The notes beneath the pieces are model-generated. The model made no database searches. It was not told where the DNA came from and was given only the letters and a program-made list of their open reading frames with translations. This document shows, in pieces, positions 13,669 to 30,970 of a stretch of DNA of 31,180 nt (positions are counted from its first letter, which is position 1; every line of letters begins with the position of its first letter). The stretch covers positions 1 through 31,180 of IMG/VR virus record IMGVR_UViG_3300022540_000312, one strand, 5' to 3'. Source of the stretch: a virus. A program made the position numbers and the translations under genes.

Positions 13669-13705
13669 CTTTATTCCTTCTCATAAATAGCTTCAAGGTA
13701 GACTA

Positions 13706-17117: not shown

Positions 17118-17165
17118 TTTTAACCTCAATAAATAAAGCCATCCCTGGCGAGTTACAGCGCGAAT

Positions 17166-18644: not shown

Positions 18645-18691
18645 CTTTTTAGTCCCGTGGTTAGTTAATTATCATTAACCTAATTGGTTAA

Positions 18692-19171: not shown

Positions 19172-19173
19172 AA

Positions 19174-19998
19174 TTATTTACTCGGTAATGACAGCGACTC
19201 ACTGTCCTCTAATAATTCCTGATCTGATTGCATATCGATAAGCGCCATTGATGATGATCCGGACAGCTGTTCAAAATTCTGCGCTTGCAGTGTAAAAAAT
19301 TGAACTGGGTCAGCTTCGGGCGTTATCGTGACAACTGGGAACGATGTTTTTTTAGCCGGGTTAGTTTTCTTTGATAAAACCATCATAAAAGGGAACCCAA
19401 ACAAGGAATATTCTTTTATGCCTAAATGCTTTGTTACATTTTCGATGTATTCAAAGAATCCAACCAGGTTGGCGCAAGTGTTCCAGGATCCTGTGCTGAA
19501 TTTTGTTAATGGTGTTGGAAACGCTACACCATCCAGCCAGCGCAATCTAAACAACAGCCTTGAGAATGGTTTGCACATTGGCTTATCGCCAACACGAAAT
19601 TCGCACTTGTCACCAGGGCATACAATCTCGTTAAATTGATTCGGATCGTTTTGATTGTCAGCGTATCGCAGGGCCGTGGTTCCGTTGCCTGTACACATAG
19701 GCTGTTTATTTGGATGCTGTTTGCCGCCCAGGGTTTGAGCCTTAAGATAGTATTCAAAACAATCATCACGGGTAGCATGGATTAAATTGCCCCTGATAAC
19801 CTTCCTTTTTTCAGGTGGCGCAGCATTGAATGAGTTAAACGCCGGGTGTGGCTGGCGCACTTTGTTAGCGTCCTGCATAGTTGAAACTATATGAAATCTA
19901 TCGGTTTCATGAGGAAATCCGCGCGCTGACTTTTTACCGATTGATAAAATAGCTCCGATTGGTTCGCGTGACTGTAAATCTTTTATTTCTTTTTTCAT
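19174..19998 (-). CDS. Gp3 / recombination-directionality-factor-like metal-binding protein (tentative)
   Basis: 274 aa. IGAILSIGKKSARGFPHETDRF, then MCTGNGTTALRY, a Cys group CPGDKCEFRVGDKPMC, and LFRLRWLDGVAFPTPLTKF with STGSWNTCANLVGFFEYI. This arrangement resembles the Gp3-like family, which includes some recombination directionality factors and is often annotated in phages as a 'hydrolase or metal-binding protein'. Four or more Cys suggest a metal site. No integrase is visible in the window, so an RDF role is unproven. Overlaps the upstream gene by ATGA. Confidence 0.45.
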   Translation of the reverse strand: MKKEIKDLQSREPIGAILSIGKKSARGFPHETDRFHIVSTMQDANKVRQPHPAFNSFNAAPPEKRKVIRGNLIHATRDDCFEYYLKAQTLGGKQHPNKQPMCTGNGTTALRYADNQNDPNQFNEIVCPGDKCEFRVGDKPMCKPFSRLLFRLRWLDGVAFPTPLTKFSTGSWNTCANLVGFFEYIENVTKHLGIKEYSLFGFPFMMVLSKKTNPAKKTSFPVVTITPEADPVQFFTLQAQNFEQLSGSSSMALIDMQSDQELLEDSESLSLPSK

Positions 19999-20285
19999 GA
20001 CGGAATACTCACATAAGCGTTACAGTTTGATTTAAGGCCGCAATCGCCAGCCGGTATTTCTCTGATCCATCTGAAGGAATCACCAGCCTGGCTTTCTTGC
20101 CATCCCTTACCGCTTGGCTTTGTTTTAGGCGTTGACGTTTCATAAGCCGGTTTTGATTGCCACATCATGCAGGTTGAGCCGATACAATTATTACGCTCAC
20201 CATTAAATACAGCCATCGCATCAACTTGTTGATAGCTTAAAAACGGGATAGGGCATAATTTTTTTAACGCGTCTTTTTCTTTCAT
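19995..20285 (-). CDS. Small Cys-containing protein
   Basis: 96 aa from ATG 20285 (MKEKDALKKLCPIPFLS), chosen because it overlaps the upstream stop exactly (ATGA). Cys at CPIP, NNCIGSTCMMW and the C-terminal DCGLKSNC form a possible metal site. The CPxx...C-x4-C-x-x-W pattern is common in small phage early proteins. Function unknown. Confidence 0.5.
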   Translation of the reverse strand: MKEKDALKKLCPIPFLSYQQVDAMAVFNGERNNCIGSTCMMWQSKPAYETSTPKTKPSGKGWQESQAGDSFRWIREIPAGDCGLKSNCNAYVSIPS

Positions 20286-20572
20286 TTGTAATGACTCCTT
20301 TTTTCTGATTCGCAAAACTCACCACAAGTTAATTTGTCATTCTTCTGGTAGTGTTTTTCAGCGATGTTTTTGTCAGTAAATATAATCGGCTTACCGCAGC
20401 ACCAGCAGGTAGTCATGCCATAAGCGCGAACTGTTTCAATTTGTGAGTTAGGATATTTATGCTGCAATACCGCGGCCAACCACTTGCATGTGTTTTCTGT
20501 ATTTAATCCATTGAATATAATTTGCCCGTCTGGATGCTGGATTGTGTTTGTATAATATGGGGCATTGTTCAT
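20282..20572 (-). CDS. Small zinc-ribbon protein
   Basis: 96 aa. The C-terminal half has TTCWCCGKPIIFTDKN ... LTCGEFCESEK, two CxxC/CxxxC pairs that form a zinc ribbon. The N-terminal part (ENTCKWLAAVLQHKYPNSQIE) is helical. It starts inside the end of the methyltransferase gene (4-nt overlap). Role unknown. Confidence 0.55.
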   Translation of the reverse strand: MNNAPYYTNTIQHPDGQIIFNGLNTENTCKWLAAVLQHKYPNSQIETVRAYGMTTCWCCGKPIIFTDKNIAEKHYQKNDKLTCGEFCESEKRSHYK

Positions 20573-21543
20573 AACGAACTATCCTTTAAGTTTTTAAAAA
20601 TGTGCGCAATTACATCAATCGTCCAGCCGTTGCCTATCATTTTGTATCTCTGTGTTTTACTGACGTGATCAGTATAATTATCTGGCAATGTTTGCAGTCT
20701 TTCGCATTCCGTAGGATGAAAGTGACGTATACACTTTTCATCCTTTAATACATTATATGGGACACCTTTAAAAAAGTTAGCGACTACCGCTGCTGATTTG
20801 TCGTTTTTAATGTCTGAATGGTGCAAAAAATCCCAATGATTTCGACCGCCTTTTACTTTTCTGTTCATATAAGCCAGCGCCTTATCAGAAAGCAATAATG
20901 ATGGGATATGCCCGCCTCCCGCTGCTGTTCTTATTGTTGGTGATTTATCTAAAAATGTACGATGTTTTTTTTCACCAAATCCGCCATACAAATTGTGCAT
21001 ACATACTGGACCATCTTGAAAATTCGCTTCGTTAAAAACAATATCTTTCAGCATGTTTCCTTTATCATTAGGTTGCTCAATACCCTCAATATTTGTCCAA
21101 TACCATCTAACTCTATTCTGTGCTGATACCAATGCCGAGTTTATTTTGATCGGTTTAATACCCAACGTCTGAGTTATCACATCAAGATATTCTTTCTTCA
21201 TGTTTACGTTTTCAAGCATGAAATACTTTGGCTTTATTGTTTTTAACGCATGAACAAACTCAAAAAATAATGCTGATCGCGGATCACTGAAATTTAATTG
21301 TTTTCCAGCAAAACTAAATCCCTGGCATGGACTTCCAGCTATTAATAAATCAATTTTAGGCAGCATTTGATAATTAATAGTTTGTACATCGCCGAGCCGA
21401 ATAATGTCAGAATAATTTGCCTTGCTGACAATGGCTGCATATTTATCAATTTCAGAGGCGTAATAATTGGTCACTGGAATGCCCGCCCTTTCAAGCGCAA
21501 TCATTCCGCAGCTCATACCATCAAATAGACTTAATACATTCAT
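20569..21543 (-). CDS. C5 cytosine DNA methyltransferase
   Basis: 324 aa from ATG 21543, whose ATGA overlap with a small upstream gene decides the start. Motif I is LSLFDGMSCGMIAL, motif IV is GSPCQGFSFAGKQ with catalytic Cys73, motif VI is ENV (111-113), motif VIII is QNRVRWYW (about 142-149), and motif X is MIGNGWTIDVI near the C-terminus. The segment SPTIRTAAGGG and HPTECERLQTLPDNYT are also typical of the family. No restriction endonuclease gene is nearby, so it probably protects phage DNA from host restriction or modulates expression. Confidence 0.9.
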   Translation of the reverse strand: MNVLSLFDGMSCGMIALERAGIPVTNYYASEIDKYAAIVSKANYSDIIRLGDVQTINYQMLPKIDLLIAGSPCQGFSFAGKQLNFSDPRSALFFEFVHALKTIKPKYFMLENVNMKKEYLDVITQTLGIKPIKINSALVSAQNRVRWYWTNIEGIEQPNDKGNMLKDIVFNEANFQDGPVCMHNLYGGFGEKKHRTFLDKSPTIRTAAGGGHIPSLLLSDKALAYMNRKVKGGRNHWDFLHHSDIKNDKSAAVVANFFKGVPYNVLKDEKCIRHFHPTECERLQTLPDNYTDHVSKTQRYKMIGNGWTIDVIAHIFKNLKDSSL

Positions 21544-21635
21544 CCTGCCACCAAAAACAACACACACAAATTAATAACAAGCATTATCAGTATGGGTACG
21601 ATAAAGCGGGTTTCTTCTATTGGTTCTTTGTTCAT
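21540..21635 (-). CDS. 31-aa single-TM peptide, first gene of the leftward operon
   Basis: MNKEPIEETR followed by about 21 hydrophobic residues (FIVPILIMLVINLCVLFLVA). AGGA lies 8 nt upstream of the ATG, and its TGA overlaps the methyltransferase ATG, so it couples methyltransferase translation. It may be a leader peptide or a small membrane protein. It is the first gene after the leftward promoter. Confidence 0.55.
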   Translation of the reverse strand: MNKEPIEETRFIVPILIMLVINLCVLFLVAG

Positions 21636-21661
21636 TGATATAGTCCTGTGTGATTATTTGC

Positions 21662-21678
21662 CGAGATAGTCATTCTCG
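21662..21678. promoter_or_regulatory. Inverted repeat near the leftward start site (possible operator)
   Basis: CGAGA (21662-21666) and TCTCG (21674-21678) flank a 7-base loop. The repeat falls just downstream of the leftward -10 box, where it could be an operator for a repressor or a short 5'-UTR hairpin. Confidence 0.35.
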
Positions 21679-21687
21679 ATTAACTGT

Positions 21688-21716
21688 AATATAATCCCGA
21701 TTTGGTAATAAATCAA
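21688..21716 (-). promoter_or_regulatory. Leftward sigma70-like promoter for the methyltransferase/recombination operon
   Basis: On the minus strand the -35 is TTGATT (21716-21711), the spacer is 17 nt and the -10 is TATATT (21693-21688). The start would be about 45 nt before the first small gene. Confidence 0.6.
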
Positions 21717-21732
21717 GATATTTAAAATAAAT

Positions 21733-21761
21733 TTGCAATAAATAATAAATAAATTTAAAAT
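21733..21761 (+). promoter_or_regulatory. Rightward sigma70-like promoter for the RHH/HTH operon
   Basis: The -35 is TTGCAA (21733-21738), the spacer is 17 nt and the -10 is TAAAAT (21756-21761). It lies in very AT-rich DNA, about 26 nt before the GTG of the RHH gene, and faces away from the leftward promoter. Confidence 0.55.
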
Positions 21762-21787
21762 ATACCTAAATTAAACGGGGGTGATAA

Positions 21788-21913
21788 GTGGAAAAACAAT
21801 ATATTTATGTAGAAGTACCAGAGGCGATAAAAAAGAAGGCGATCAGACTTGCTAAAAAATCTGATTTAAGTCTTAGGCAATGGGTTACTAAATTAATCAG
21901 AGACGCCAAATAA
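21788..21913 (+). CDS. Ribbon-helix-helix (Arc-like) protein, GTG start
   Basis: 41 aa. YIYVEVPEAIKKKAIRLAKK then SDLSLRQWVTKLIRDAK gives a strand, helix, turn, helix layout of Arc/MetJ repressors. GTG is preceded by GGGGGTGA about 6 nt upstream. Its stop overlaps the next start (TAATG). It probably regulates the divergent promoters directly upstream. Confidence 0.62.
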   Translation: MEKQYIYVEVPEAIKKKAIRLAKKSDLSLRQWVTKLIRDAK

Positions 21914-22158
21914 TGAAAAATAAAAAACCTTATACATCTTTAACCATTAATGATTATGACTTTTTAATTGATGTTGATTTTATAGAAGTTATAAATGATT
22001 TGTTATCATTCCCCGGTATTACAATGGAGAAAATAGCGTATCGTGTTAATTCGTCAAGCACGGCTATTGATAGATATAAAAATGAGGGAGTTACTCCTAA
22101 ATTCCATGTTGGCGTTAATCTTTTAAAGATGCGCGATAAATTTTACAGAAATATTTAA
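21913..22158 (+). CDS. Small HTH protein (Cro/CII-like)
   Basis: 81 aa. FIEVINDLLSFPG then ITMEKIAYRVNSSSTAIDRYKNEG reads as a helix-turn-helix in which the recognition helix is SSSTAIDRYKN. Coupled to the RHH gene by TAATG. Likely a second regulator of the early switch. No larger CI-like repressor is seen next to it. Confidence 0.6.
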   Translation: MKNKKPYTSLTINDYDFLIDVDFIEVINDLLSFPGITMEKIAYRVNSSSTAIDRYKNEGVTPKFHVGVNLLKMRDKFYRNI

Positions 22159-22178
22159 TAACCAAGAGGACTAAAACA

Positions 22179-22658
22179 ATGCCAGAAATAGCACTAAATA
22201 AAACACAAGCAACAATCACTAAAGTCAATCCACGCAAAGAAAAGCATGGAGATAAAAACGTGCTGGCCTGCGACGTGGTCATGTCAACTCGCATCCCAGC
22301 ATCCGTTTTATCCTGCCTGGATTTAGCCGGGCAATCCATTGAGCAACACTTTTGGGATAATGGGCTACCACGATTCCCGCAGATTAACGCGCTGACATTC
22401 GAACAAAAATTCGAGCATCATAAAATCAAGATTGGCGCGTCCGAATATAAGGACGTGAAGATATGCAAATTAAAAGTTAATCCACTGGAAGGCGGCATGG
22501 CATTTTTACATTTCACAGTTCAAATACGGCCATCAAAGCAACAGGTTGGAATATTGGCTGATCTGACCGAGGAACAGGTTGATATTGAAATAGAGGCGCT
22601 GCAGGGTGATTTGTTGGATGAGGCTATGAATCGCGAACAGGAAGATAGCGCGGATTAA
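22179..22658 (+). CDS. Conserved phage hypothetical protein
   Basis: 159 aa. ITKVNPRKEKHGDKNVLACDVV, then STRIPASVLSCLDLAG and HHKIKIGASEYKDVKICKL, and an acidic C-terminus (LTEEQVDIEIEALQGDLLDEA). This pattern, a beta-rich domain with a K-E-K-H-G-D motif, recurs in phage early regions near recombination genes, where a single-strand DNA-binding role is sometimes supposed. I cannot confirm it. SD GAGG precedes ATG. Confidence 0.55.
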   Translation: MPEIALNKTQATITKVNPRKEKHGDKNVLACDVVMSTRIPASVLSCLDLAGQSIEQHFWDNGLPRFPQINALTFEQKFEHHKIKIGASEYKDVKICKLKVNPLEGGMAFLHFTVQIRPSKQQVGILADLTEEQVDIEIEALQGDLLDEAMNREQEDSAD

Positions 22659-22679
22659 ATCAGAACACCAAGAGAAGAG

Positions 22680-22775
22680 GGCTGACCGTACAGTCTGAGC
22701 AATGTTGGCAGATCACCAACAGGAGTCGCCGAGAAGATATAACAATTGCTCCAGTCTAAAATAGTTTTTTTAGGT
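22680..22775 (+). other. Structured non-coding stretch between the early gene and its terminator
   Basis: No ORF with a plausible start is present from 22,659 to 22,816. GAGCAAT (22697-22703) can pair with ATTGCTC (22745-22751), enclosing a GTTGG/CCAAC hairpin (22704-22708/22716-22720), and GCTGAC...GTC-TG-AGC can pair just before. A T-run lies at 22764-22771. It could be a small RNA or a structured 3' UTR. The folding is by eye. Confidence 0.3.
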
Positions 22776-22816
22776 ATACGGTGAATTAATCAACAATCTC
22801 CGTTAACCATTTAGAG

Positions 22817-22846
22817 GGCGCTGGCGATATGCTAGCGCCTTTTTTA
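22817..22846 (+). terminator. Rho-independent terminator of the rightward RHH/HTH operon
   Basis: GGCGCTGGC pairs with GCTAGCGCC (one G-U) around the loop GATAT, followed by six T. It faces the leftward RuvC gene, whose stop codon lies at its right edge, so it separates convergent genes. Confidence 0.85.
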
Positions 22847-23311
22847 TGCCTCATATGATGTTGCTGTAATAGCAACAGCCAGCGCCGCCCATATATCCTT
22901 GCTGCATCCATAGAGTGCGCCCGGCTCTGATTTAATACCTATTGCAGCTCGCCTTGTGCTTCCATACATATCCATTATTGCTTGTCTAATATTTGAGTCC
23001 TTTGCCCTTGTTTGGCCGCATAGAAACATTTTTACATCTTTCCGGTAGACAAACTCAAAGTTCTGGCAACCCCCAAACGCCTCGATAAATCGGCCTATCC
23101 ACACGCAGGTTTCAAAAACCGTCTTGCCTACTGGCATTCCATAACTTGCCACCATTTCAATATATAATTTTGAGCAATTATTTATTGATTCAGAATCATG
23201 CAGCATTTTTCTAAATTCGTGGTTTTCAATTATTCCTTTTTCCCTGATTACGCCATCATTAAAAATAACATAGGCGCTTTGTGTTGTGCCTGGATCAACT
23301 GCTAATATCAT
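22844..23311 (-). CDS. RuvC-like Holliday-junction resolvase
   Basis: 155 aa from ATG 23311 (MILAVDPGTT). An ATG 12 nt earlier lies inside the ribosome site GGAGGG, so it is rejected. RNase-H-fold acidic residues are Asp6 (VDPG), Glu52 (YIEMV) and Asp139 (SKDIWAAL). The region KDVKMFLCGQTRAKDSNIRQ matches phage-type resolvases. It would resolve branched DNA after replication and recombination. It follows a 68-aa gene by 14 nt. Confidence 0.8.
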   Translation of the reverse strand: MILAVDPGTTQSAYVIFNDGVIREKGIIENHEFRKMLHDSESINNCSKLYIEMVASYGMPVGKTVFETCVWIGRFIEAFGGCQNFEFVYRKDVKMFLCGQTRAKDSNIRQAIMDMYGSTRRAAIGIKSEPGALYGCSKDIWAALAVAITATSYEA

Positions 23312-23325
23312 ATAACCCTCCAAAG

Positions 23326-23532
23326 TTAATCATTTTCATTAGTCACCACCCGGCCAGGCTCGCCAATAGTTAACTCATAACAATCAGTCCCCCATCCGCG
23401 CACCTCGAAGCGATCACGTCCGATATTTTTAACGTGCTGATCGATTATCTCAAACGCTTCCTTTTCTGAATTTGCAATAGTAAAAAAACTATATTGTCCG
23501 TGGCCTGTGGGCTGATAAGCGTATAAGTTCAT
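23326..23532 (-). CDS. Small conserved phage protein
   Basis: 68 aa: MNLYAYQPTGHGQYSFFTI, then ANSEKEAFEII and a WGTDCYELTIGEPG...NEND end. This compact pattern is common in phage early regions. It precedes the resolvase and may be in the same transcript. Function unknown. It lies just left of the attC-like array (its stop is TAA followed by C, but no palindrome follows). Confidence 0.55.
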   Translation of the reverse strand: MNLYAYQPTGHGQYSFFTIANSEKEAFEIIDQHVKNIGRDRFEVRGWGTDCYELTIGEPGRVVTNEND

Positions 23533-23553
23533 AATTATTTTGTATTAAATATT

Positions 23554-23612
23554 GTGTTATACAGAATGTGGAATATTGAATATTTCACCATCTGTCTAAT
23601 ACACCGTTATAC
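23554..23612 (+). repeat. attC-like element J
   Basis: Left arm GTGT (23554-23557) ... CAGA (23562-23565) pairs with TCTG (23591-23594) ... ACAC (23601-23604), with unpaired bases, and ends in CGTTATAC; GTTATAC (23606-23612) is close to GTTRRRY. The TTA is the stop of the 71-aa gene. No TAACAA box is at the left. The 16-base string ATATTCCACATTCTGT, in reverse complement here, recurs at about 12,822. Weakest of the array's palindromes. Confidence 0.45.
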
Positions 23613-23822
23613 AGCCTTGGCGTATCTGCGTTGTTCTGCTCTTAAAATAACTAATTGCAATATCTCCAAATCAATCGGATCGTTAACCTGTAGATGCAGA
23701 TAAATACCTGGTGCCTGTATGTTTACAACTGGTCCCGGAGCAGGCGGCCCCATAACAAGTCGCTCAACAACGGACGCTTCGCGTCCTGCGGACTTTTCAT
23801 GTTTAGTTGTAACATCACTCAT
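23607..23822 (-). CDS. Cassette ORF: small hypothetical protein
   Basis: 71 aa. VERLVMGPPAPGPVVNIQAPG then IYLHLQVNDPIDLEILQLVI, ending RAEQRRYAKAV. SD GAGG precedes ATG. It shares one cassette with the 62-aa gene, separated by a 45-nt spacer that ends in an attC remnant (TTAGCTAAATCGTTA). No family recognised. Confidence 0.55.
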   Translation of the reverse strand: MSDVTTKHEKSAGREASVVERLVMGPPAPGPVVNIQAPGIYLHLQVNDPIDLEILQLVILRAEQRRYAKAV

Positions 23823-23849
23823 TGTGGTATCCTCGTAGTTCAGTTATTG

Positions 23850-23873
23850 CGCCGGTTAGCTAAATCGTTATAT
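23850..23873 (+). repeat. attC right-end remnant F
   Basis: GGTTAGCTAAATCGTTATAT matches the right end of element B (TTAACTAAATCGTTA) and element E (GGTTAGCTATGTCGTTATAT). The left arm of a palindrome is missing. The TTA at 23868-23870 is the stop of the 62-aa gene. Confidence 0.5.
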
Positions 23874-24056
23874 TCCATCAATATTCAAAGCCCGTTTAAC
23901 GCGTTTCCATATTATAGACTCTAAGCGAAAAAGGTCATTGTCAATTGTCATCGGCTTAATAGGGCTGTCATCGCCGTTTAGTTCAATGCGTAATTCCATA
24001 ATAGTTTCACTAATAGCGTTGTAAACTTCCTGTCTTTTCTTCTCGCTCATATTCAT
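23868..24056 (-). CDS. Cassette ORF: small hypothetical protein
   Basis: 62 aa (or 60 from the second ATG at 24050). MSEKKRQEVYNAISETIMEL then DLFRLESIIWKRVKRALNIDG; helical, charged. It lies between element H and remnant F. Function unknown. Confidence 0.5.
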   Translation of the reverse strand: MNMSEKKRQEVYNAISETIMELRIELNGDDSPIKPMTIDNDLFRLESIIWKRVKRALNIDGI

Positions 24057-24085
24057 AATAAATACCTGTATATAATAAATAAATT

Positions 24086-24158
24086 AAGCGCGACTGTTCT
24101 AGCCGCCGTTGTTTTCCTGCATTGCCTGGTGAGCAGCGCCTTATTCAAGGCGTTATAT
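24086..24158 (+). repeat. attC-like element H
   Basis: AAG-C-GCG-A-CTG (24086-24096) pairs with CAGCGCCTT (24134-24142): 9 bp with two unpaired bases, C24089 and A24093, in the left arm. The right end is GGCGTTATAT with core GTTATAT (24152-24158). A second hairpin CGCCTT/AAGGCG (24137-24152) overlaps. The left TAAC box is degenerate (TATAATAA). The TTA is the stop of the 59-aa gene. Confidence 0.6.
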
Positions 24159-24332
24159 TAAAAAACCAATATCTATCATTATCTTTTCAACTACCAAATA
24201 CCACGAGTAAAAGGGTAGGCATATACTCAGCGCCGTCAGCCAAAAGCCTTTTGCTAAAACAACGCCCATAATCCAGGTTATTACCGCTAAGGAAAACCCG
24301 ATATTTCTTAAAATCAAATTTAATTCACTCAT
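24153..24332 (-). CDS. Cassette ORF: 59-aa membrane protein
   Basis: MSELNLILRNIGFSLAVITW starts the product; about two hydrophobic segments follow (IGFSLAVITWIMGVVLA and LTALSICLPFYSWYLVV). SD GGAGCGG lies 5 nt upstream of the ATG. It is the sole gene of its cassette between elements G and H. It could be a small membrane regulator or exclusion factor. Confidence 0.6.
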   Translation of the reverse strand: MSELNLILRNIGFSLAVITWIMGVVLAKGFWLTALSICLPFYSWYLVVEKIMIDIGFLI

Positions 24333-24352
24333 GTTACCGCTCCAATTAATTA

Positions 24353-24410
24353 ATATAACAATGCAATAAACCGGACGTAAAATACACGCCGGTTATTTAT
24401 AACGTTAGCC
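24353..24410 (+). repeat. attC-like element G
   Basis: Left box ATATAACAA (24353-24361). AATAA-A-CCGG (24365-24374) pairs with CCGGTTATT (24389-24397): 9 bp with one unpaired A in the left arm. Right box AACGTTAGCC, core GTTAGCC (24404-24410). At 58 bp it is close to the smallest known attC sizes. The TTA is the stop of the 143-aa gene. Confidence 0.7.
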
Positions 24411-24836
24411 ACCTAAAGTTGGGCATACACTTAAATCTATAAGTTTGTAATACCCATCAATTTGTATATTGCAGCCCAGTCTTCCGTGGGGCTTCTTTTC
24501 AACTGTACCGATAAGCTTCCCGTTAATACCATCGGCTATATGCACCATTAAATCCACCGCATCAACACAGGTAGTAACCCACGGTACTGCAATCAAATCA
24601 AGGTCGCGCTCTTTAGATCCATGCTCTCCGATAGCGTAACCAACTTCTCCGGCCAGGTGCCTTATACGATCAACTGGTGGCAGCTTCGGATCTTTCCAGC
24701 CTTCGTATGGTATAAAAGTTTCAGTTCCACACTTCCAGCATTTTTCACCTTCTCTGCGCGAATGACACTGGTTGCAATATCGATGGCTAACAAAACGCTC
24801 AACCGGACTCGTTTCTACGCATTTCGTTTCTCTCAT
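24405..24836 (-). CDS. Cassette ORF: zinc-ribbon phage protein
   Basis: 143 aa from ATG 24836; the GTG 15 nt earlier is an alternative. N-terminal zinc ribbon: CNQCHSRREGEKCWKC. Then PPVDRIRHLAGEVGYAIG, LDLIAVPWV, and a conserved end KKPHGRLGCNIQIDGYYKLI with DLSVCP. The 'VDRIR.LA.EVGYAIG...DLDLIAVPWV' motif is a recognised phage hypothetical family. It shares a cassette with the HTH gene upstream. Role unknown. Confidence 0.65.
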   Translation of the reverse strand: MRETKCVETSPVERFVSHRYCNQCHSRREGEKCWKCGTETFIPYEGWKDPKLPPVDRIRHLAGEVGYAIGEHGSKERDLDLIAVPWVTTCVDAVDLMVHIADGINGKLIGTVEKKPHGRLGCNIQIDGYYKLIDLSVCPTLGG

Positions 24837-24852
24837 TGCTCCGTTCCTCACA

Positions 24853-24872
24853 GGTTAGCTATGTCGTTATAT
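24853..24872 (+). repeat. attC right-end remnant E
   Basis: GGTTAGCTATGTCGTTATAT, nearly the same as remnant F, with no left arm. The TTA (24867-24869) is the stop of the HTH gene. It suggests fusion of two cassettes after loss of most of a site. Confidence 0.5.
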
Positions 24873-25154
24873 TTCTAAAAGATCATCAGCACTTAACTGT
24901 AATTCAAGGCACAATGGTCTTAGAGTTTTAATTGTCATTGACTGTTTGCCTCCTTCGATATTTGCAAGCGATGTTCTGCTTATACCTACAGCTTCTGCGA
25001 GTTCAGCCTGTGTTAATCCATAATCTTTTCGTGCATTTTGGATTTTTAGGCCGGCGGCTCTTTTGGGATACCCGTCAGCTTCATCCTCAAGCCTTGCAAG
25101 CTGCAACTTTGTATCTGCAATCTTCTTTTTTAATTTATCTGCTTTAGTGCTCAC
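24867..25154 (-). CDS. Cassette ORF: XRE-type HTH regulator with N-terminal coiled coil, GTG start
   Basis: 95 aa. Residues 5-30 form a Lys/Leu coiled coil (KLKKKIADTKLQLARLEDEA). The HTH follows: IQNARKDYGLTQAELAEAVGISRTSLANIEGG is split as LTQAELAEAVG and SRTSLANIEGGKQS, a textbook XRE helix pair. The C-terminus LRPLCLELQLSADDLLEI is typical. SD AGGTG precedes GTG. It may be a cassette-borne repressor or an antitoxin whose partner is elsewhere. Confidence 0.75.
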   Translation of the reverse strand: MSTKADKLKKKIADTKLQLARLEDEADGYPKRAAGLKIQNARKDYGLTQAELAEAVGISRTSLANIEGGKQSMTIKTLRPLCLELQLSADDLLEI

Positions 25155-25172
25155 TATTCACCTATAATAAAA

Positions 25173-25260
25173 ATATAACAATAAAATTAACGCAGACCGC
25201 CCATACGCTGTTTGGTTTCTAATAGACCAGTGGGCGGCTGGTTATTAACAGTCGTTATAC
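25173..25260 (+). repeat. attC-like element D
   Basis: Left box ATATAACAA (25173-25181). CAG-A-CCGCCCA (25193-25203) pairs with TGGGCGGCTG (25231-25240): 10 bp with unpaired A25196 in the left arm; an inner TGGT/ACCA (25213-25216/25226-25229) continues the stem. Right box GTCGTTATAC, core GTTATAC (25254-25260). The TTA is the stop of the ASCH gene. Confidence 0.72.
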
Positions 25261-25584
25261 GTTTCTAATCTCTAAAATTTTACCCAATGCGATAACAAAG
25301 TATTGTTTATTATTGTCAAGCGGCTCGTTATTTTCTGGTTCACAGCTCCCACCCCTAAGAATACCCATACCAACGAACTTGCATCTTAAAAAAGGTCTGT
25401 CATTGCCATAGCCATTTGTAAAATGCACCTCATCAAAATTCTTGTGACCGCCTCTTTTCCCTGCTTCGCTTTTTCCTAGCAATCGGCTGATCCAGTGTTT
25501 TTTATATTCCCTGTATTCAAAGCATTTATCACCAGATGCAATAAGGTCAAACCATTCTTTTTTTAGCGTTAGTTTTAAGTCCAC
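25255..25584 (-). CDS. Cassette ORF: ASCH/PUA-like domain protein, GTG start
   Basis: 109 aa. MDLKLTLKKEWFDLIASGDK, then FEYREYKKHWISRLLGK and NFDEVHFTNGYGNDRPFLRC, matching the ASCH pattern of WFDxIxSGxKxxEYR...W..RL followed by the F..GYG..RP strand. GTG is preceded by AAGGGGG. Distinct from the ASCH protein at 12,998-13,336. ASCH domains are linked to RNA or modified nucleoside binding; the role here is unknown. Confidence 0.72.
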   Translation of the reverse strand: MDLKLTLKKEWFDLIASGDKCFEYREYKKHWISRLLGKSEAGKRGGHKNFDEVHFTNGYGNDRPFLRCKFVGMGILRGGSCEPENNEPLDNNKQYFVIALGKILEIRNV

Positions 25585-25603
25585 GCTTCCCCCTTAAGGT
25601 CAC

Positions 25604-25665
25604 GCATAACAATTCGTTTGTTCGGAACTCCGCTTCGCTACGTCCGCACAACTCTGACGTTAGGC
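25604..25665 (+). repeat. attC-like element C (best match to classical attC)
   Basis: Left box GCATAACAATTCGTT, the same as the start of classical aadA-type attC sites (TAACAATTCGTT). GTT-T-GT-T-CGGA (25616-25626) pairs with TCCG-C-ACAAC (25643-25652 region), with one unpaired T and one mismatch. Right box GACGTTAGGC with a perfect core GTTAGGC (25659-25665). 62 bp. The TTA is the stop of the 82-aa gene. Confidence 0.75.
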
Positions 25666-25908
25666 GTTCAGTATATTGTCTGGTGTTATTGATTTAATGC
25701 TTTGTTTTCCTGTGTGTAGCCGCACTCGTACATAACCATAGCGCCCGCCGTCATATCCTATTACTGTGCAACCAGACGGGTATCTCTGCCCACTCATAAT
25801 AAACACATTAATATTTTTTCCTTTTGGATATAACTGCTCAAGCTCGACAATTACCTCATTTTCTGCTTTTACTAAAGCTTGTAATTTTTTATTTAATTTT
25901 GAGTTCAT
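25660..25908 (-). CDS. Cassette ORF: small hypothetical protein
   Basis: 82 aa. A helical N-terminus (LNKKLQALVKAENEVIVELEQ) and a beta-rich basic end (PSGCTVIGYDGGRYGYVRVRL). SD GGAG is 7 nt before ATG. Sole gene between elements B and C. No family recognised. Confidence 0.55.
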   Translation of the reverse strand: MNSKLNKKLQALVKAENEVIVELEQLYPKGKNINVFIMSGQRYPSGCTVIGYDGGRYGYVRVRLHTGKQSIKSITPDNILNA

Positions 25909-25921
25909 ATCAATGCTCCGC

Positions 25922-26006
25922 GCCTAACAAGCCGTTCAATTTGACGGTCAACCCGCCGTGTTTTTCAAAAAGTTCTGTGTGCCGCAAATTAACTAAATCG
26001 TTAATT
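25922..26006 (+). repeat. attC-like element B
   Basis: Left box is a perfect RYYYAAC, GCCTAACAA (25922-25930). GTT-C-AATTTG-A-CGG (25934-25947) pairs with CCGCAAATTAAC (25982-25993): 12 bp with two unpaired bases, C25937 and A25944, in the left arm, 7 nt apart. These correspond to unpaired G and T on the bottom strand, as in known attC hairpins. Right box ATCGTTAATT, core GTTAATT (26000-26006). The TTA is the stop of the 49-aa gene. Confidence 0.78.
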
Positions 26007-26150
26007 TTTCAAATAATTAACCATAAATTCAGCAAAAAGCTCACTATAAATAAGCACAAAACCAAATATCACAAAGCCGAAATATGCGACGAAAAACATT
26101 GCTATTAATCGCATTAATGGTTCGATTGTTCTTATGTATTGTTTAATCAT
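26001..26150 (-). CDS. Cassette ORF: 49-aa membrane protein
   Basis: MIKQYIRTIEPLMRLIAMFF begins the product; one to two hydrophobic segments follow (MRLIAMFFVAYFGFVIFGFVL). ATGA overlaps the upstream stop. AGGA is upstream. Its stop is in element B. Function unknown. Confidence 0.55.
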   Translation of the reverse strand: MIKQYIRTIEPLMRLIAMFFVAYFGFVIFGFVLIYSELFAEFMVNYLKN

Positions 26151-26323
26151 TTTCTATTTTTCCTATGATAGTTTCGCACAGCAAAGACCGTCCTAACGTG
26201 CTGTTCAGCCTTTATGCGCATATCGTCCGGTACTTCCAACAACCTGGCTGCGCGGGCTTCTTTTGATTTGCCTTGCAGGACGTATGCGTTTGCTTGGCCC
26301 TGTGTTTTAAAGTTCATTTTCAT
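26147..26323 (-). CDS. 58-aa hypothetical protein, first gene of the leftward cassette transcript
   Basis: MKMNFKTQGQANAYVLQGKS, then KEARAARLLEVPDDMRIKAE and a basic end (RNYHRKNRK). ATG 26323 or 26317. Coupled to the 49-aa gene by ATGA. It lies directly after the second divergent control region, so it is probably the first gene transcribed leftward. No family recognised. Confidence 0.55.
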   Translation of the reverse strand: MKMNFKTQGQANAYVLQGKSKEARAARLLEVPDDMRIKAEQHVRTVFAVRNYHRKNRK

Positions 26324-26339
26324 ATCGTCTTTTAAATTT

Positions 26340-26392
26340 TTGTTGATTGTAATACTATTTACGTATAATATGCAAACACTATTTACTTATAA
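26340..26392. promoter_or_regulatory. Divergent control region with two direct repeats
   Basis: Rightward: -35 TTGTTG (26340-26345), 18-nt spacer, -10 TATAAT (26364-26369). Leftward: -35 TTGCAT (26375-26370), 18-nt spacer, -10 TACAAT (26351-26346). Two 15-bp direct repeats ACTATTTAC(G/T)TATAA lie at 26354-26368 and 26378-26392, with a 24-bp period, inside both promoters. Likely operators for the RHH protein encoded just to the right. Confidence 0.5.
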
Positions 26393-26411
26393 AACATAAG
26401 GGCGCAAAAAA

Positions 26412-26576
26412 ATGGCGAACGAGTCAAAGACAGAAACAGTTGGAATACGACTAACAGCAGAAACCAGGGATTATCTTTTGTCTGAGGCACAAGCTGATGA
26501 AAGGTCGTTGTCGTTTGTGGCTGGAAAAATACTCACAAATTATGTGAACGAAAAGAAAGCTGAATTAAATAAATAA
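26412..26576 (+). CDS. Ribbon-helix-helix protein
   Basis: 54 aa. ETVGIRLTAETRDYLLSEAQ then ADERSLSFVAGKILTNYVNEK is a strand, helix, turn, helix as in CopG/Arc repressors. AAGGG precedes ATG. It overlaps the replication gene by TAATG, so it is co-translated with it. Likely autorepressor acting on the direct repeats 20-60 nt upstream. Confidence 0.65.
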   Translation: MANESKTETVGIRLTAETRDYLLSEAQADERSLSFVAGKILTNYVNEKKAELNK

Positions 26577-27268
26577 TGTCTGATTATTCCTGGATATCAT
26601 TGCATCGCAGGTTGCGATCATCGGGCATCTATAAAGATTCACAGGCCGTGCATTTATGGGTTCATTTATTGTTATCGGCGAACCACAAAGATAAAAAGGT
26701 ACTCGTTGGAAACGGCTTTGTTGAGATAAAAACAGGACAGCTATTAACGGGAAGAAAGGCGCTGTCAAAAGCGACAGGGATAAATGAAAGCAAAATATTC
26801 AGGCTACTAAAACTGTTTGAAAGTGATCGTCAAATCGAACAACAAAAAACGACAAAATATACAGTAATATCAATAGTTAAATATAGTCAGTACCAGAGAA
26901 GCGAACAACAAACGAACAACAAACGAACAACAAACGAACAACAACTGAACACAAACAATAATAACAATAATATAAATAAAGACAATAAAGATCAAAAGAC
27001 TGCGCGATTCGCGCCACCAACGATCACAGAATTACAGAATTACATCACAGAAAAAAATATATTTAGTATCGACGCTGAAATATTTTTTAATCACTACGAA
27101 CAAAACGGCTGGAAGGTTGGCAAAAATAAAATGAAGTCATGGAAACTTGCTATCAGTGGATGGCATAAACGAAACACAAAACAAAATAACGGTGGAAATA
27201 ATGCAAATAGAAAACTCTCAGCAGTTGAGCAAGTTGAGCAAGCAACCAGATCAAGAAATAACTTCTGA
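26576..27268 (+). CDS. Replication initiator, lambda O / DnaD-like
   Basis: 230 aa. Residues 1-105 form a winged-helix region (SWISLHRRLRSSGIYKDSQA, GQLLTGRKALSKATGINESK, then YTVISIVKYSQYQ) as in phage replisome organisers. Residues about 108-142 are a low-complexity Gln/Asn/Thr linker encoded by tandem 11-bp repeats. The C-terminal domain (TELQNYITEKNIFSIDAEIF, ...HYEQNGWKVGKNKMKSWK...AISGWHKRN) is the DnaD/O-type end that contacts the helicase loader. Overlaps the P-like gene. The repeats inside the gene are probably the origin. Confidence 0.75.
   Translation: MSDYSWISLHRRLRSSGIYKDSQAVHLWVHLLLSANHKDKKVLVGNGFVEIKTGQLLTGRKALSKATGINESKIFRLLKLFESDRQIEQQKTTKYTVISIVKYSQYQRSEQQTNNKRTTNEQQLNTNNNNNNINKDNKDQKTARFAPPTITELQNYITEKNIFSIDAEIFFNHYEQNGWKVGKNKMKSWKLAISGWHKRNTKQNNGGNNANRKLSAVEQVEQATRSRNNF
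26902..26945 (+). repeat. Tandem 11-bp iterons inside the initiator gene (probable replication origin)
   Basis: Three exact copies of CGAACAACAAA (26902-26912, 26913-26923, 26924-26934) are followed by a fourth with one change (26935-26945) and a degraded fifth starting TGAAC. An AT-rich tract follows (about 26,951-26,999). Eleven is not a multiple of three, so the protein reads the unit in changing frames; selection on DNA is likely. The layout of iterons followed by an AT-rich tract inside an O-like gene is that of lambda ori. Confidence 0.68.
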
Positions 27269-27713
27269 TGATATTGATGAAGTTTATCGAAGAATGTCCA
27301 GGCTATATGGGCATAGCTTCGTTAGTAGTTTCGGAACCTCGGATGATGGTACATGGTTGATGGCGCTCTCAGGATTGAAGAAAAGCGACTTATCTCGCGG
27401 ACTGACGATGTTATTAAATTGCTCAACAGACTGGCCGCCTTCAGTACCGAGATTTAGACGTATGTGCCTTGGAATAACAGATAAACATATCGAGGCAAGG
27501 GCGATAGAGCTCGCAAGTGGTAGTGATAACTATAATTTCTATAAATTACCTGAGAAAGATATTTATTTTCGGGTAAAAGAAAAAAGAGATCAAGCATCTG
27601 AAGAACTAACTACTGAATTCTTAAAATTAGCCAGCAATGGCCTGCTTAGAAGTGAATTAGAAAAGCGTCCAAAACTAACTTATAACGAACCATATTACGG
27701 GAACGTATTATGA
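27201..27713 (+). CDS. Replication protein P-like (helicase loader)
   Basis: 170 aa from ATG 27201 (MQIENSQQ), chosen because GGTGGA precedes it; upstream TTG codons are weaker. It overlaps the initiator gene by 68 nt. Motifs: VYRRMSRLYGHSFVSSFG, DGTWLMALSGLKKSDLSRGL and CSTDWPPSVPRFRRMCLG, typical of P-type loaders that deliver the host replicative helicase to the origin-bound initiator. Confidence 0.7.
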   Translation: MQIENSQQLSKLSKQPDQEITSDDIDEVYRRMSRLYGHSFVSSFGTSDDGTWLMALSGLKKSDLSRGLTMLLNCSTDWPPSVPRFRRMCLGITDKHIEARAIELASGSDNYNFYKLPEKDIYFRVKEKRDQASEELTTEFLKLASNGLLRSELEKRPKLTYNEPYYGNVL

Positions 27714-28117
27714 GCGATGACCGCCCCGCAAAAATTGAAGATGTAGATCGGATTGCAAGCATTATCGAAAATAGAAAAGCTAGTAATAGCAGCGAGCCTC
27801 ATGGCATACCAGCTCAAACCATGCAGGGCGCTCATTGGTGGATAAAGTTTTTAGAACCGCGACAGCAATACGAGGTTGATAGATTTTTAAAAAAGGCGTG
27901 GCAGCTGCCATATCAAAACAGAATAGCCGATTGTTTGATTATTTATTATAAGTTATCAGGACGCGAACAAAGCGAATTACTTGCTATGCGTGAACGCGAA
28001 ATATACTGGCGTGGTGACAGTCTTGAGTTTATGCGAATACGTCAAAAAGTTGATATGAATAAACTTGATAAGGCGAATATGAAGCAATTGCTTAAAAAAA
28101 TAATTAAAAGAGCTTAA
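27710..28117 (+). CDS. Hypothetical protein after the P-like gene
   Basis: 135 aa, ATGA overlap with the P-like gene. QTMQGAHWWIKFLEPRQQYE, FLKKAWQLPYQNRIADCLII and a basic C-terminus (MKQLLKKIIKRA) suggest a helical nucleic-acid-binding protein. Its place after P resembles that of lambda nin-type or antitermination genes, but no family is recognised. Confidence 0.5.
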   Translation: MSDDRPAKIEDVDRIASIIENRKASNSSEPHGIPAQTMQGAHWWIKFLEPRQQYEVDRFLKKAWQLPYQNRIADCLIIYYKLSGREQSELLAMREREIYWRGDSLEFMRIRQKVDMNKLDKANMKQLLKKIIKRA

Positions 28118-28119
28118 TT

Positions 28120-28287
28120 GTGACAAAAATCAAGCTAAAAAACCAAAGCGGTGAGTTGCTCGAAACCATGAAAATCAAATCCACCCCGACTAGATTTATT
28201 TTAATCCGAGGCCGGTTATTTGAATGGGACACAGTGCAGCCAGACGAATACGAATACACTGAACGACCATACCTTGAAATAAATTGA
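28120..28287 (+). CDS. 55-aa hypothetical protein, GTG start
   Basis: TKIKLKNQSGELLETMKIKS then RFILIRGRLFEWDTVQPDEY, with an acidic/aromatic C-terminus. GTG is 2 nt after the preceding stop; AAAAGAG lies upstream. A small beta-rich product in the post-replication gene group. Function unknown. Confidence 0.45.
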   Translation: MTKIKLKNQSGELLETMKIKSTPTRFILIRGRLFEWDTVQPDEYEYTERPYLEIN

Positions 28288-28296
28288 GGACTAAAA

Positions 28297-28602
28297 ATGA
28301 ACACAAAACCAACAGAGCCAAGAATAACTATACAAGCAAAAGATAATGACGGTACAGTCAAAAACCTGACCTGTTTATCGTGGAGCAAGATCACTGGATC
28401 ACCAACAGACACAATTCGATATCTTTACAGACGAAATAAATCTGGCAAAATAAATATCTCTAACAGGCAAGTTATCGGGCTTGATGAATTACCAAAACCA
28501 GCATTTAATAAAAACGCGGCTATAACCAAAAAACAAAAAGCAATCACACGGAATCAATTAATGTCTGCATTTTTAAGAAAGCGATTAGTGCCGGGCAATT
28601 AA
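28297..28602 (+). CDS. Hypothetical protein, possible DNA-binding
   Basis: 101 aa, SD GAGG. LSWSKITGSPTDTIRYLYRR then NISNRQVIGLD could be a helix-turn-helix, and the C-terminus is very basic (NAAITKKQKAITRNQLMSAF, RKRLVPGN). Ends one base before the next GTG. Assignment is weak. Confidence 0.5.
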   Translation: MNTKPTEPRITIQAKDNDGTVKNLTCLSWSKITGSPTDTIRYLYRRNKSGKINISNRQVIGLDELPKPAFNKNAAITKKQKAITRNQLMSAFLRKRLVPGN

Positions 28603-28603
28603 T

Positions 28604-28810
28604 GTGACCGCGACCTGTTTACTGGATAATGGCGAATTTTATATCTACAATGCCGCTTCAAGAATTGACAGTAGACCATACGATCAGGCTATTTTTAAAT
28701 ACATTGGCGACGGCATTATTGGCTCGGTAAACATCAAGGGACAGACGGTTTATTACAAAGGAAAAACGCGGCTGAGTTTTTATGTTTTGAAAAAGCGAGG
28801 GCGATTGTGA
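28604..28810 (+). CDS. Small hypothetical protein, GTG start
   Basis: 68 aa. LLDNGEFYIYNAASRIDSRP then YYKGKTRLSFYVLKKRGRL; beta-rich with a basic end. The GTG is one base after the previous stop. No family recognised. Confidence 0.45.
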   Translation: MTATCLLDNGEFYIYNAASRIDSRPYDQAIFKYIGDGIIGSVNIKGQTVYYKGKTRLSFYVLKKRGRL

Positions 28811-28837
28811 TATTATCCAGAAAAACAGGCGCACACG

Positions 28838-29200
28838 ATGACAAAAACCCTCCCCTCAATTATTGGCGAACTTGAATTAAATATTATCGATGGTGTTGCC
28901 TTGCCGCTACATTTTGATATTACAGACAACGAAACCGGCGACGTTATACCGCTGACCGGATATACAGCAAAATTTCAAATCAGGCCGTCAACATCGGATC
29001 AAAACGCCGCGCTCGTTGATTTGGCATCACCCACAGATATAGTTATCGATGAATTACTCGGAACCGTTGATCTGATAATCCTTGGTCAATCGTTTGGTGA
29101 TGATTCGCTGGTATGGGGGCTGCAATTAATCGATGCGTCAGCGATACCGGATATTGTTCTTGGCGGTATTCTTAATAGCAAAAAAGAGGCTATTCAATAA
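28838..29200 (+). CDS. Virion-associated beta-sandwich protein
   Basis: 120 aa. PLHFDITDNETGDVIPLTGY then TAKFQIRPSTSDQNAALVDL, with later strands LLGTVDLIILG and VWGLQLIDA. The pattern matches small Ig/BppU-like proteins encoded with tail or neck genes. Its stop overlaps the next start by one base (TAATG). It marks the return to structural genes. Confidence 0.5.
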   Translation: MTKTLPSIIGELELNIIDGVALPLHFDITDNETGDVIPLTGYTAKFQIRPSTSDQNAALVDLASPTDIVIDELLGTVDLIILGQSFGDDSLVWGLQLIDASAIPDIVLGGILNSKKEAIQ

Positions 29201-29838
29201 TGGCTAGTCAAGTCAAGGTTGCTGTAATTGATAACAAAATAAAAGTTGCCGTTACCAGTGGAGCGAGGAATTTAGGCGGCTTGGGAGATGTTGAGCTCAG
29301 CTCTGTCAAAGAAGATGATACCTTGCTTTATGATAGCGTCGCAGGGAAATTCAAAAACCAGGACAATCACGCAGTAGCAACGCATTTAAAAGTTAGAAAT
29401 ATATCAGGCGCGACAATGAATACAGGTGATGCTGTTGCTTTAGTTGGTTACAGCGTCGGCCAGGAAGCAATAGAAGTAATATTAGCAGATCAAACCACAA
29501 GTTTATCGTTTGGACTCATTGAGGAGCCTCTTTTAAATAATGAAAATGGATTTATTATTATCTCAGGCGTTATGGAAGGAGTGGACACAAGTGCGTTTAC
29601 CGAGGGAAATGTTTTATATGTTAATAGCACGGGCAAATTAACAGAGACAGAACCAACAACCGGGTTTATGCAGCCTATTGCATTTGTTTTACGATCACAT
29701 GCAAGTAGTGGTGTCATTCAAATATTGGCTGATTATCCAAAACAAGACGCGACCGATGTTAGATATACTGGAACGCTATTATCAACAAACGTAAAAGAAG
29801 CATTAAACGAATTGCACGCGCTAATACTTGCGCCTTAA
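29200..29838 (+). CDS. Virion fibre/whisker-type protein
   Basis: 212 aa. LSSVKEDDTLLYDSVAGKFK, then LKVRNISGATMNTGDAVALV, IISGVMEGVDTSAFTEGNVL with YVNSTGKLTETEPTTGFMQP and IAFVLRSHASSGVIQILADY. These are recurring segments of phage fibre or whisker proteins. The C-terminal STNVKEALNELHALI helix could trimerise. A structural role is inferred. Confidence 0.55.
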   Translation: MASQVKVAVIDNKIKVAVTSGARNLGGLGDVELSSVKEDDTLLYDSVAGKFKNQDNHAVATHLKVRNISGATMNTGDAVALVGYSVGQEAIEVILADQTTSLSFGLIEEPLLNNENGFIIISGVMEGVDTSAFTEGNVLYVNSTGKLTETEPTTGFMQPIAFVLRSHASSGVIQILADYPKQDATDVRYTGTLLSTNVKEALNELHALILAP

Positions 29839-29857
29839 AAGCTAACCGGAGAATAAC

Positions 29858-30244
29858 ATGAAACACATACTATTTTTATTACTGGCAATCTCGTTTAATG
29901 CCCTGGCTGACTCTATAACAGTTGACCCTAATATTAAACCAGAACAGATCATCAATTGTACACTTCCAACAGAGCGCGAAGATAACGCGCCGCTTGATGT
30001 GTCTGAGATATTAAATATTAATTGGTATATCGGCATGGCCTCTGGCGATTACATGGAGAAAATACCAACAGAAACATGCCAGATAACTCTTGATCTAACT
30101 CAATATGCTGACGGTAAGTATTATATTGCTGCTACAACAGTTGATACAGATTTCCGCGAATCAGGTTACTCGGCTGAGAGTGATATGACGGTAAAGCGAC
30201 AAACGCCGCCTGCCCGAATGGCAGCACCGGCGTTCGTACGATAG
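29858..30244 (+). CDS. Small exported protein with Ig/FnIII-like domain
   Basis: 128 aa. Signal peptide MKHILFLLLAISFNALA with cleavage before DS. The mature part has ITLDLTQYADGKYYIAATTV and DTDFRESGYSAESDMTVKR, a fibronectin-III-like pattern. SD GGAG precedes ATG. Immediately after its stop the -1 frame stays open to 30,333. It may act at the cell surface or be a structural protein with an unusual N-terminus. Function unknown. Confidence 0.6.
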   Translation: MKHILFLLLAISFNALADSITVDPNIKPEQIINCTLPTEREDNAPLDVSEILNINWYIGMASGDYMEKIPTETCQITLDLTQYADGKYYIAATTVDTDFRESGYSAESDMTVKRQTPPARMAAPAFVR

Positions 30245-30343
30245 ATGGAATTCTATGCACCCCGAAAGAGTGTAAAAACTACTACTGGCCTGACAAGCAA
30301 TTAATTAAAAGATGTAAAGAGGCGTTGAGATAATGCGAGCGAT

Positions 30344-30970
30344 ATGCCTCAACAAATAATTGACATTACAGTAGATATAAAACAAGCCAAAAAGAAATTA
30401 AAGGGATTTGAGAGGGTTGTTGATCGGGCGGCTAAATCTGCATTAATCAAAACGGCTAAATCAGCCGAGTCATTCACCGTTAGAAGTATGGCGGCTAATA
30501 CAGGGTTAACAGTAAAGGTTACGCACAAATTCATAATGTTAAATATTAGTGTTGGCGCGACTGGATTATCTGCTGTTATCAAGCCTACTAAAAGACACCC
30601 GAACCTTATTGAATTTATGAGCCGCGCACAGATCAACAGAGCGCTAACCCGCAAAGGAAAGAAAGGGGGTAGAGGCCGCCCATTAGGTAAAGGTATTAGC
30701 TCTAAATCGTGGGGCAAATCAAAAGTATATAAAGGCGCATTTGTTGGGCGTGGTAAAACAAGCGGTAAGCTATTGGTTTATACACGAGAGAATGCAGAGG
30801 GTAAGAAAAGCGGAATAAGAGCTTTACCCGGGGCGTCCCCTTTTGCTGAGTTCCAACGACCTGACTTTTACGATGTACTTAAAGCAGTGTCGCACGCGAA
30901 CTTCAAAAAGAACTTCAAGCGTAATATTAAGTTCTTTATGGCTAAGGAAGGTATTTCTGTGCGCGGGTAG
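30344..30970 (+). CDS. Minor tail protein (gpZ-like)
   Basis: 208 aa. ITVDIKQAKKKLKGFERVVD with RAAKSALIKTAKSAESFTVR, a Lys/Gly-rich middle (RKGKKGGRGRPLGKGISSK), then VYKGAFVGRGKTSGKLLVYT with REN, and a C-terminal helical end. This is the layout of prophage minor tail protein Z, a tail-completion or neck protein. Here it is far from the other tail genes and close to the expected terminase side of the genome. Confidence 0.68.
   Translation: MPQQIIDITVDIKQAKKKLKGFERVVDRAAKSALIKTAKSAESFTVRSMAANTGLTVKVTHKFIMLNISVGATGLSAVIKPTKRHPNLIEFMSRAQINRALTRKGKKGGRGRPLGKGISSKSWGKSKVYKGAFVGRGKTSGKLLVYTRENAEGKKSGIRALPGASPFAEFQRPDFYDVLKAVSHANFKKNFKRNIKFFMAKEGISVRG

Follow-up and report, generated by a model that had tools for sequence, protein, structure and literature searches.

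We analysed IMG/VR virus record IMGVR_UViG_3300022540_000312, a linear record of 31,180 bp with tailed-phage genes (the window, meaning this whole stretch), which carries a series of attC-like integron recombination sites between small genes. The window encodes a capsid protein (42-1244) and tail genes up to about 10 kb, then a leftward replication/recombination block and the cassette region. Its list of open reading frames (ORFs) contains no recognisable terminase or portal gene, so the record is probably incomplete. Between 23,607 and 26,000 lie seven short genes, every one on the minus strand. An earlier reading made from the letters alone (the sequence-only reading) had listed CGTTA at eight consecutive boundaries, and we located all of them on the plus strand (23606, 23867, 24152, 24404, 24866, 25254, 25659 and 26000). 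At each one, the TTA gives, on the minus strand, the TAA stop codon of an ORF. CGTTA occurs 12 times on the plus strand of 23,500-26,100, and just these eight terminate a minus-strand ORF (at least 45 aa) at the TTA; as background, 4.3% of the 736 other TTAs in the window terminate a minus-strand ORF of comparable size. A complete attC-like element stands on the plus strand behind seven of the eight boundaries, one more than the six palindromes counted earlier, and boundary 23606 has the right half only.

We trained a covariance model (CM) on 30 attC sites from class 1 and bacterial chromosomal integrons, with zero phage sequences among them. The model returned five significant sites in 23,750-26,006, all on the plus strand, with scores of 30.7-39.1 bits (E = 1.7e-5 to 1.6e-7), which bears out the proposal that an attC array bounds small genes in a phage. 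In 1.04 Mb of other phage DNA, it gave 10 matches above 16 bits, several of them grouped in twos or threes. Our own box-and-stem scanner found six real matches, against 0.025 per shuffled copy of the region. A search of the window against Rfam gave nothing at gathering thresholds, a result that is uninformative for attC.

The crossover G^TTA is retained at 8/8 boundaries. As for the outer boxes RYYYAAC and GTTRRRY, element 25604-25665 has the perfect right box noted earlier and a perfect left box as well, element 25922-26006 has the perfect left box attributed to it, and the right box of 24353-24410 is near-perfect; at site 24070, AAT replaces AAC in the left box. In the CM alignments of the significant sites, the L arms are paired and unpaired bases are confined to the left arm. 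The unpaired bases had thus been recognised correctly, with a correction of strand: they are a C and an A in left arms on the plus strand, where canonical top strands have them too. The bottom strand used in recombination would accordingly be the minus strand, the one that also encodes the genes. The coordinates are collected in Table 1.

Table 1. Recombination sites, cassette genes and flanking genes of the window (CM, covariance model; positions are those of the window).
Feature	Position	Strand	Evidence	Remarks
Half site at CGTTA boundary 23606	23590-23612	+	No CM match	No left arm; ORF 23607-23822 ends at its TTA
attC site 1	23750-23873	+	CM 31.9 bits, E = 8.6e-6	Long variable loop overlapping 5' end of gene 23607-23822; G^TTA crossover after 23867
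attC site 2	24070-24158	+	Own scanner 37.5; CM 9.7 bits	Degenerate left box (TAAT for TAAC); crossover after 24152
attC site 3	24353-24410	+	CM 39.1 bits, E = 1.6e-7	Central stem in free fold; crossover after 24404
attC site 4	24785-24872	+	CM 30.7 bits, E = 1.7e-5	Overlaps 5' end of ORF 24405-24851; crossover after 24866
attC site 5	25173-25260	+	TAACAA box, paired arms with one unpaired A, CGTTA; CM 7.8 bits	attC-like stem, z -2.5; crossover after 25254
attC site 6	25604-25665	+	CM 33.3 bits, E = 4e-6	Perfect outer boxes GCATAAC ... GTTAGGC; crossover after 25659
attC site 7	25922-26006	+	CM 31.3 bits, E = 1.2e-5	Crossover after 26000
Cassette gene, 71 aa	23607-23822	-	No family match	TAA stop from crossover TTA
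Cassette gene, 62 aa	23868-24056	-	No family match	
Cassette gene, 59 aa	24153-24332	-	phrog_16613, E = 1.8e-15	Membrane-like
Cassette gene, 148 aa	24405-24851	-	phrog_35913	Zinc-ribbon-like
Cassette gene, 95 aa	24867-25154	-	Pfam HTH_19, 2.5e-11	XRE/Cro-type helix-turn-helix regulator
Cassette gene, 109 aa	25255-25584	-	phrog_625	ASCH-like
Cassette gene, 82 aa	25660-25908	-	Relatives search: two short, weak matches	No family assigned
ORF, 49 aa	26001-26150	-		Membrane-like; TAA is last crossover TTA; promoter-proximal array end; own attC not seen
First gene of leftward operon	26147-26323	-	Relative in attC-bearing contig L227	Overlaps 26001-26150
68-aa gene	23326-23532	-	Homologue (44%) adjoins attC in L215	attI-facing flank
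RuvC-like Holliday junction resolvase gene	22844-23323	-	phrog_1770, 2.6e-21	

The attC sites of the window are canonical on the plus strand and all cassette genes lie on the minus strand, so that 7/7 genes run against their attC; for four of these seven cassette ORFs, a family match backs the minus-strand frame. Class 1 and Vibrio cassettes are built the other way: gene and attC top strand share one direction, and the stop codon lies at the left-box TAAC. This inversion had escaped the sequence-only reading, and it separates the array from bacterial cassette arrays.

We then surveyed polarity more widely, scoring at each site the longest ORF (minimum 70 aa) ending at either outer box in symmetrical windows. 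A scan of IMG/VR for the attC pattern gave 95 matching stretches, and this viral set held 120 inverted versus 58 canonical sites (52 versus 9 contigs). A second viral set, collected through IntI, comprised 17 inverted and 5 canonical contigs. Bacterial loci chosen by IntI similarity gave the opposite picture, with 4 inverted versus 87 canonical sites (1 versus 32 contigs), and the class 1 and Vibrio sites were 0 versus 60. The contig counts are the safer figure because sites in one contig are not independent. Among records with a terminase match, the ratio of inverted to canonical was 35:11, leaving out L242/L250, in which a phage is joined to a canonical bacterial-type integron. The inverted layout is therefore found in dozens of other virus records, in some of them together with an integrase.

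Two cassettes that occur in more than one contig had inverted-frame substitutions at codon positions 1/2/3 of 12/7/56 and 15/7/37. By this codon-position signature, the inverted frame is the coding frame and the inverted ORFs are real genes. Family matches of inverted ORFs in the viral contigs include DNA methyltransferases, Mom, SSB, RtcB and a restriction-alleviation protein. An artefact of ORF calling is ruled out as the source of the inversion by the bacterial controls, the codon-position substitutions and the family matches, and the idea that attC polarity simply follows the genes is ruled out by box order, the strand of the CM matches and the geometry beside intI. For one call scored as "canonical" (L186/L274), the changes clustered at codon position 1, the pattern expected of an antisense ORF. 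We also observed an unusually large inverted cassette, L271:2374-4758, which encodes a 794-aa fusion of a helicase with an N6/N4 DNA methyltransferase. In a stretch of plasmid R100 (20-45 kb), no integron was found.

Integron integrases could be read beside such sites in other viral records. In 4 of 50 attC-bearing viral records, an IntI exceeded the TIGR02249 cut-off. Scanning with an IntI alignment brought up 311 related viral stretches, and we read the best 80 of them. The viral IntI proteins retain the catalytic and the IntI-specific residues. The attC sites beside viral intI point away from it, as in ordinary integrons (67 of 72 lie left of a rightward intI), and the cassette genes point toward it. 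The orientation of attC to intI is ordinary; therefore, the genes are what is flipped. Maps of L318, L284, L283, L347 and L281 run from the array through intI to the next phage gene, with some overlaps of 4 bases or fewer. The gene after intI encodes the terminase large subunit in L283 and L284, a phage integrase in L347 and a primase in L281; in L318, a 642-aa ORF is followed by portal and head protease genes. Overall, 9 of 30 genes downstream of viral intI matched phage integrase profiles and 5 matched terminase profiles. We noted intI overlapping or abutting the next gene at L283:6001-8854, L284:1991-4869 and L318:6001-8891. On their gene order, intI lies inside the packaging operon in these three records.

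In a quick tree of IntI, from which no inference on the number of origins is drawn, the viral sequences fell into several virus-only clades bearing inverted arrays. This position, together with several arrays lying beside terminase or portal genes, argues against the inverted viral contigs being mis-binned bacteria. L299 and L312 have an IntI in bacterial clades and canonical arrays, so some viral contigs are indeed mis-binned; these two and L242/L250, which shares both traits, are probably host integron DNA joined to a prophage, and records of this type call for caution in surveys of phage integrons. In L363-L367 (Actinomycetota, Omnitrophota and Planctomycetia metagenome-assembled genomes with detected sites), attC lies downstream of a Treponema-type flipped intI. 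In the window, the RuvC-like gene (22844-23323) occupies the place that intI has in phage integrons with one. Four phages chosen solely for a RuvC relative (L008, L040, L044 and L049) had small attC-like clusters by CM; such arrays may often lie near a resolvase gene.

Comparisons of related phage records bore out the expectation that cassettes are gained, lost or exchanged at G^TTA. L201 and L219 share 99.2-99.8% identity over about 3 kb and differ by one 249-nt unit. The extra 249 nt in L219, TTATATGG...CTACG, lie between CTTG and TTATGCG, giving the junctions CTTG^TTATATGG and CTACG^TTATGCG. This unit (L219 1490-1738; about 2454 on the reverse complement of L201) comprises one inverted ORF and one attC (40.3 bits), and the alignment thus places a precise insertion or excision exactly at G^TTA. 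The same two records have different genes at a boundary without attC (L219 264-610 versus L201 3333-3757). L189 and L226 have one complete cassette in common (about 850 bp, 90% identity), bounded by the crossover in both, and nothing else detectable. The two nearest relatives of the window's ASCH-like gene 25255-25584 (61% and 58%) are inverted cassettes in L442 and L443; its distant relatives have no flanking attC. L442:1210-3187, in a viral record of 39.7 kb, holds about seven attC on one strand, and the ASCH-like gene of the window recurs there as one cassette. Relatives of the 24405 gene adjoin inverted attC in L167 and L168, and the L168 record encodes IntI. Two attC-bearing contigs (L234:4833-5011 and L253:6884-7039) have short stretches outside the cassettes in common with the window (78-94% identity; window 13181-14293), so the array type recurs within the same phage group.

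Taking these results together, the stretch is very probably a phage-borne array of integron gene cassettes of the inverted-gene type, served by an IntI in trans or encoded in missing sequence. Clusters of attC sites lacking an integron integrase (CALINs) comprise at least two attC with no intI nearby, as does this array, although the record is incomplete; the intI gene that marks a complete integron is absent from the record. By its site pattern, the array is a CALIN of an inverted variant, and its sites are predicted to be active. On the minus strand, each unit reads attC, gene and TAA stop, the stop being the reverse complement of the crossover TTA. The array sits within a leftward phage operon that probably starts at about 26.3-26.4 kb and runs into the RuvC-like gene. 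IntI would fold the minus-strand (bottom-strand) attC into hairpins and insert or remove single cassettes at G^TTA, by pairing two such hairpins, or one hairpin with the attI-like half site at 23606, and exchanging one strand at G^TTA. In position, this half site fits attI, and we infer that it is either attI-like or an attC remnant at the attI-facing end of the array. GTTATACAG is present twice, 51 bp apart, at 23549-23613, spanning the half site, and the pair may be what is left of an attI or a lost attC.

Since the window has no integrase, the candidate sources of IntI are the host, a co-infecting phage or prophage, and the part of this incomplete genome that was not sequenced. With orientation set by attC polarity and the genes inverted, every captured gene would be read by the leftward phage operon and would have its own stop supplied. 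New cassettes would enter at the promoter-distal end beside intI, in contrast to the promoter-adjacent entry of an ordinary integron. In sister phages, intI stands at the attI end, in the same direction as the cassettes and immediately ahead of terminase, integrase or primase genes. With cassettes and intI in one phage operon, expression would follow the phage programme rather than the integron promoter Pc. The benefit may lie in the cassettes themselves, many of which encode DNA modification or anti-restriction proteins. More broadly, we consider it likely that tailed phages own a distinct integron type, with its own IntI lineages, a separate all-inverted cassette pool, an operon of array, intI and terminase, integrase or primase, expression by the phage programme, and exchange of anti-restriction and other small genes between phages; the window would be an integrase-less or incompletely sequenced member.

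Several observations weigh against this interpretation. Sites 24070 and 25173 score 9.7 and 7.8 bits, insignificant alone, with boxes, arms and position kept. The minus-strand folding suggested by the sequence-only reading came out partly as expected: free folding gave the expected central stem in 24353 and 25173 only, and z-scores ranged from 0 to -2.5, versus -4.7 for an aadA1-type site, with several elements near their shuffles. The hairpin claim thus rests on architecture and not on folding energy, and some sites may be decayed or poor substrates. The absence of an integrase, claimed earlier, holds for the record, which has no IntI or tyrosine recombinase match (TIGR02249 or PF00589); the record is incomplete, and sister phages encode IntI. 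The best relatives of the window phage are distant (59% for the major capsid protein and 52% for RuvC), and therefore gain or loss in its own array was not seen; megablast of 17,000-31,180 against 50,697 phage records gave no match. Finally, IMG/VR records are metagenomic contigs, and one terminase profile matched 24 of 86 distinct records, although that profile, phrog_2, is by itself insensitive and overlooked phrog_15 terminases.

These same weaknesses would suit an array of relics, built by an ancestral IntI, in which most sites have decayed, the order is fixed and the cassettes are retained as normal phage genes. The lower CM scores and weak folds at several sites, the missing left TAAC at 24070, the half site at 23606 and the failure to find IntI all fit such a history. 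We regard it as somewhat unlikely, given that five window sites score like experimentally active phage sites and that the crossover is kept at every boundary. Temperate and Vibrio phages are known to pick up pieces of bacterial chromosomal integrons (PMC9892861), and the window, having no IntI in its record, might likewise be a captured piece that is now a passive CALIN of ordinary cassettes. Captured bacterial cassettes, however, keep canonical polarity (bacterial contigs 32 to 1), whereas the window is 7/7 inverted; its seven attC differ widely from one another, unlike a Vibrio-type array, and its genes have phage-protein relatives. Such a capture is thus very improbable. Both the reversed polarity and the presence of phage-type genes (DNA methyltransferases, Mom and restriction alleviation) favour a pool circulating among phages over captured bacterial cassettes, and for the same reasons the earlier suggestion of a vehicle that carries cassettes from host to host is not the one we prefer.

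The palindromes could instead be intergenic regulatory hairpins (terminators, processing sites or T4-type PeLS elements) that resemble attC by convergence. They do lie between genes of a single operon, and some might act as weak terminators, with no excess over shuffles in that potential. Yet a model of true attC matches them at E values down to 1.6e-7; both outer boxes, the spacer, the unpaired C and A and G^TTA all keep their proper relative positions; and related records have insertion or exchange precisely at G^TTA, with IntI encoded beside such sites in sister records. This explanation is largely refuted, and we find it scarcely credible. PeLS in T4-type phages, like other intergenic mosaic boundaries, are short structured sequences between small genes where gene content varies; they consist of promoter or stem-loop repeats on which homologous recombination acts. 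The window differs in having its crossover at a fixed base within an integrase site.

Phage integrons and CALINs have already been described (PMC9892861, Qi et al. 2023), so the presence of attC clusters in a phage is not new in itself. Five of six tested attC from virulent phages, TJE1's included, recombined with IntI1, and two TJE1 attC were recombined by IntI1 (PMC9892861). The CALIN of Tetrasphaera phage TJE1 resembles the window in that attC bound small genes in a phage with no adjoining intI, and its three attC score 32-36 bits with our bacterial CM, versus 31-39 for the significant window sites. In contrast to the window, TJE1 genes are canonical, as in bacteria. Bacterial integrons (class 1 aadA1 and cmlA, and Vibrio chromosomal) share with the phage arrays the R''-L''-L'-R' boxes, a left arm with unpaired C and A, the G^TTRRRY crossover, one gene per cassette and attC pointing away from intI. 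They differ in that their canonical genes are read from Pc at attI, whereas the phage genes are inverted and the operon promoter lies far from attI; in phages with intI, moreover, cassettes and intI are co-directional, unlike in bacterial integrons. In Treponema-type atypical integrons, intI is flipped and transcribed toward attI, with canonical cassettes (PMC3607928), whereas in the phages it is the genes that are reversed, intI being oriented to attI and attC as usual. Our literature search, which did not extend to preprints and subscription papers and leaves priority unestablished, found no account of phage cassettes with inverted genes, nor of intI within a phage terminase operon.

The mosaic genomes of phages are usually explained by homologous or illegitimate recombination. 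One-at-a-time swaps of small early phage genes would be accounted for by a site-specific system dedicated to cassettes. In integrons, selective use of the bottom strand ensures that the gene faces the promoter Pc (PMC8946536); the phage arrays break this rule, with an orientation that is equally strict but reversed. This raises the question of whether the inverted phage cassettes form a pool apart from the bacterial one, and which came first. The DNA methyltransferase, Mom and restriction-alleviation cassettes suggest a swappable store of counter-defence functions, and the inverted arrays offer a direct route to finding new counter-defence genes.

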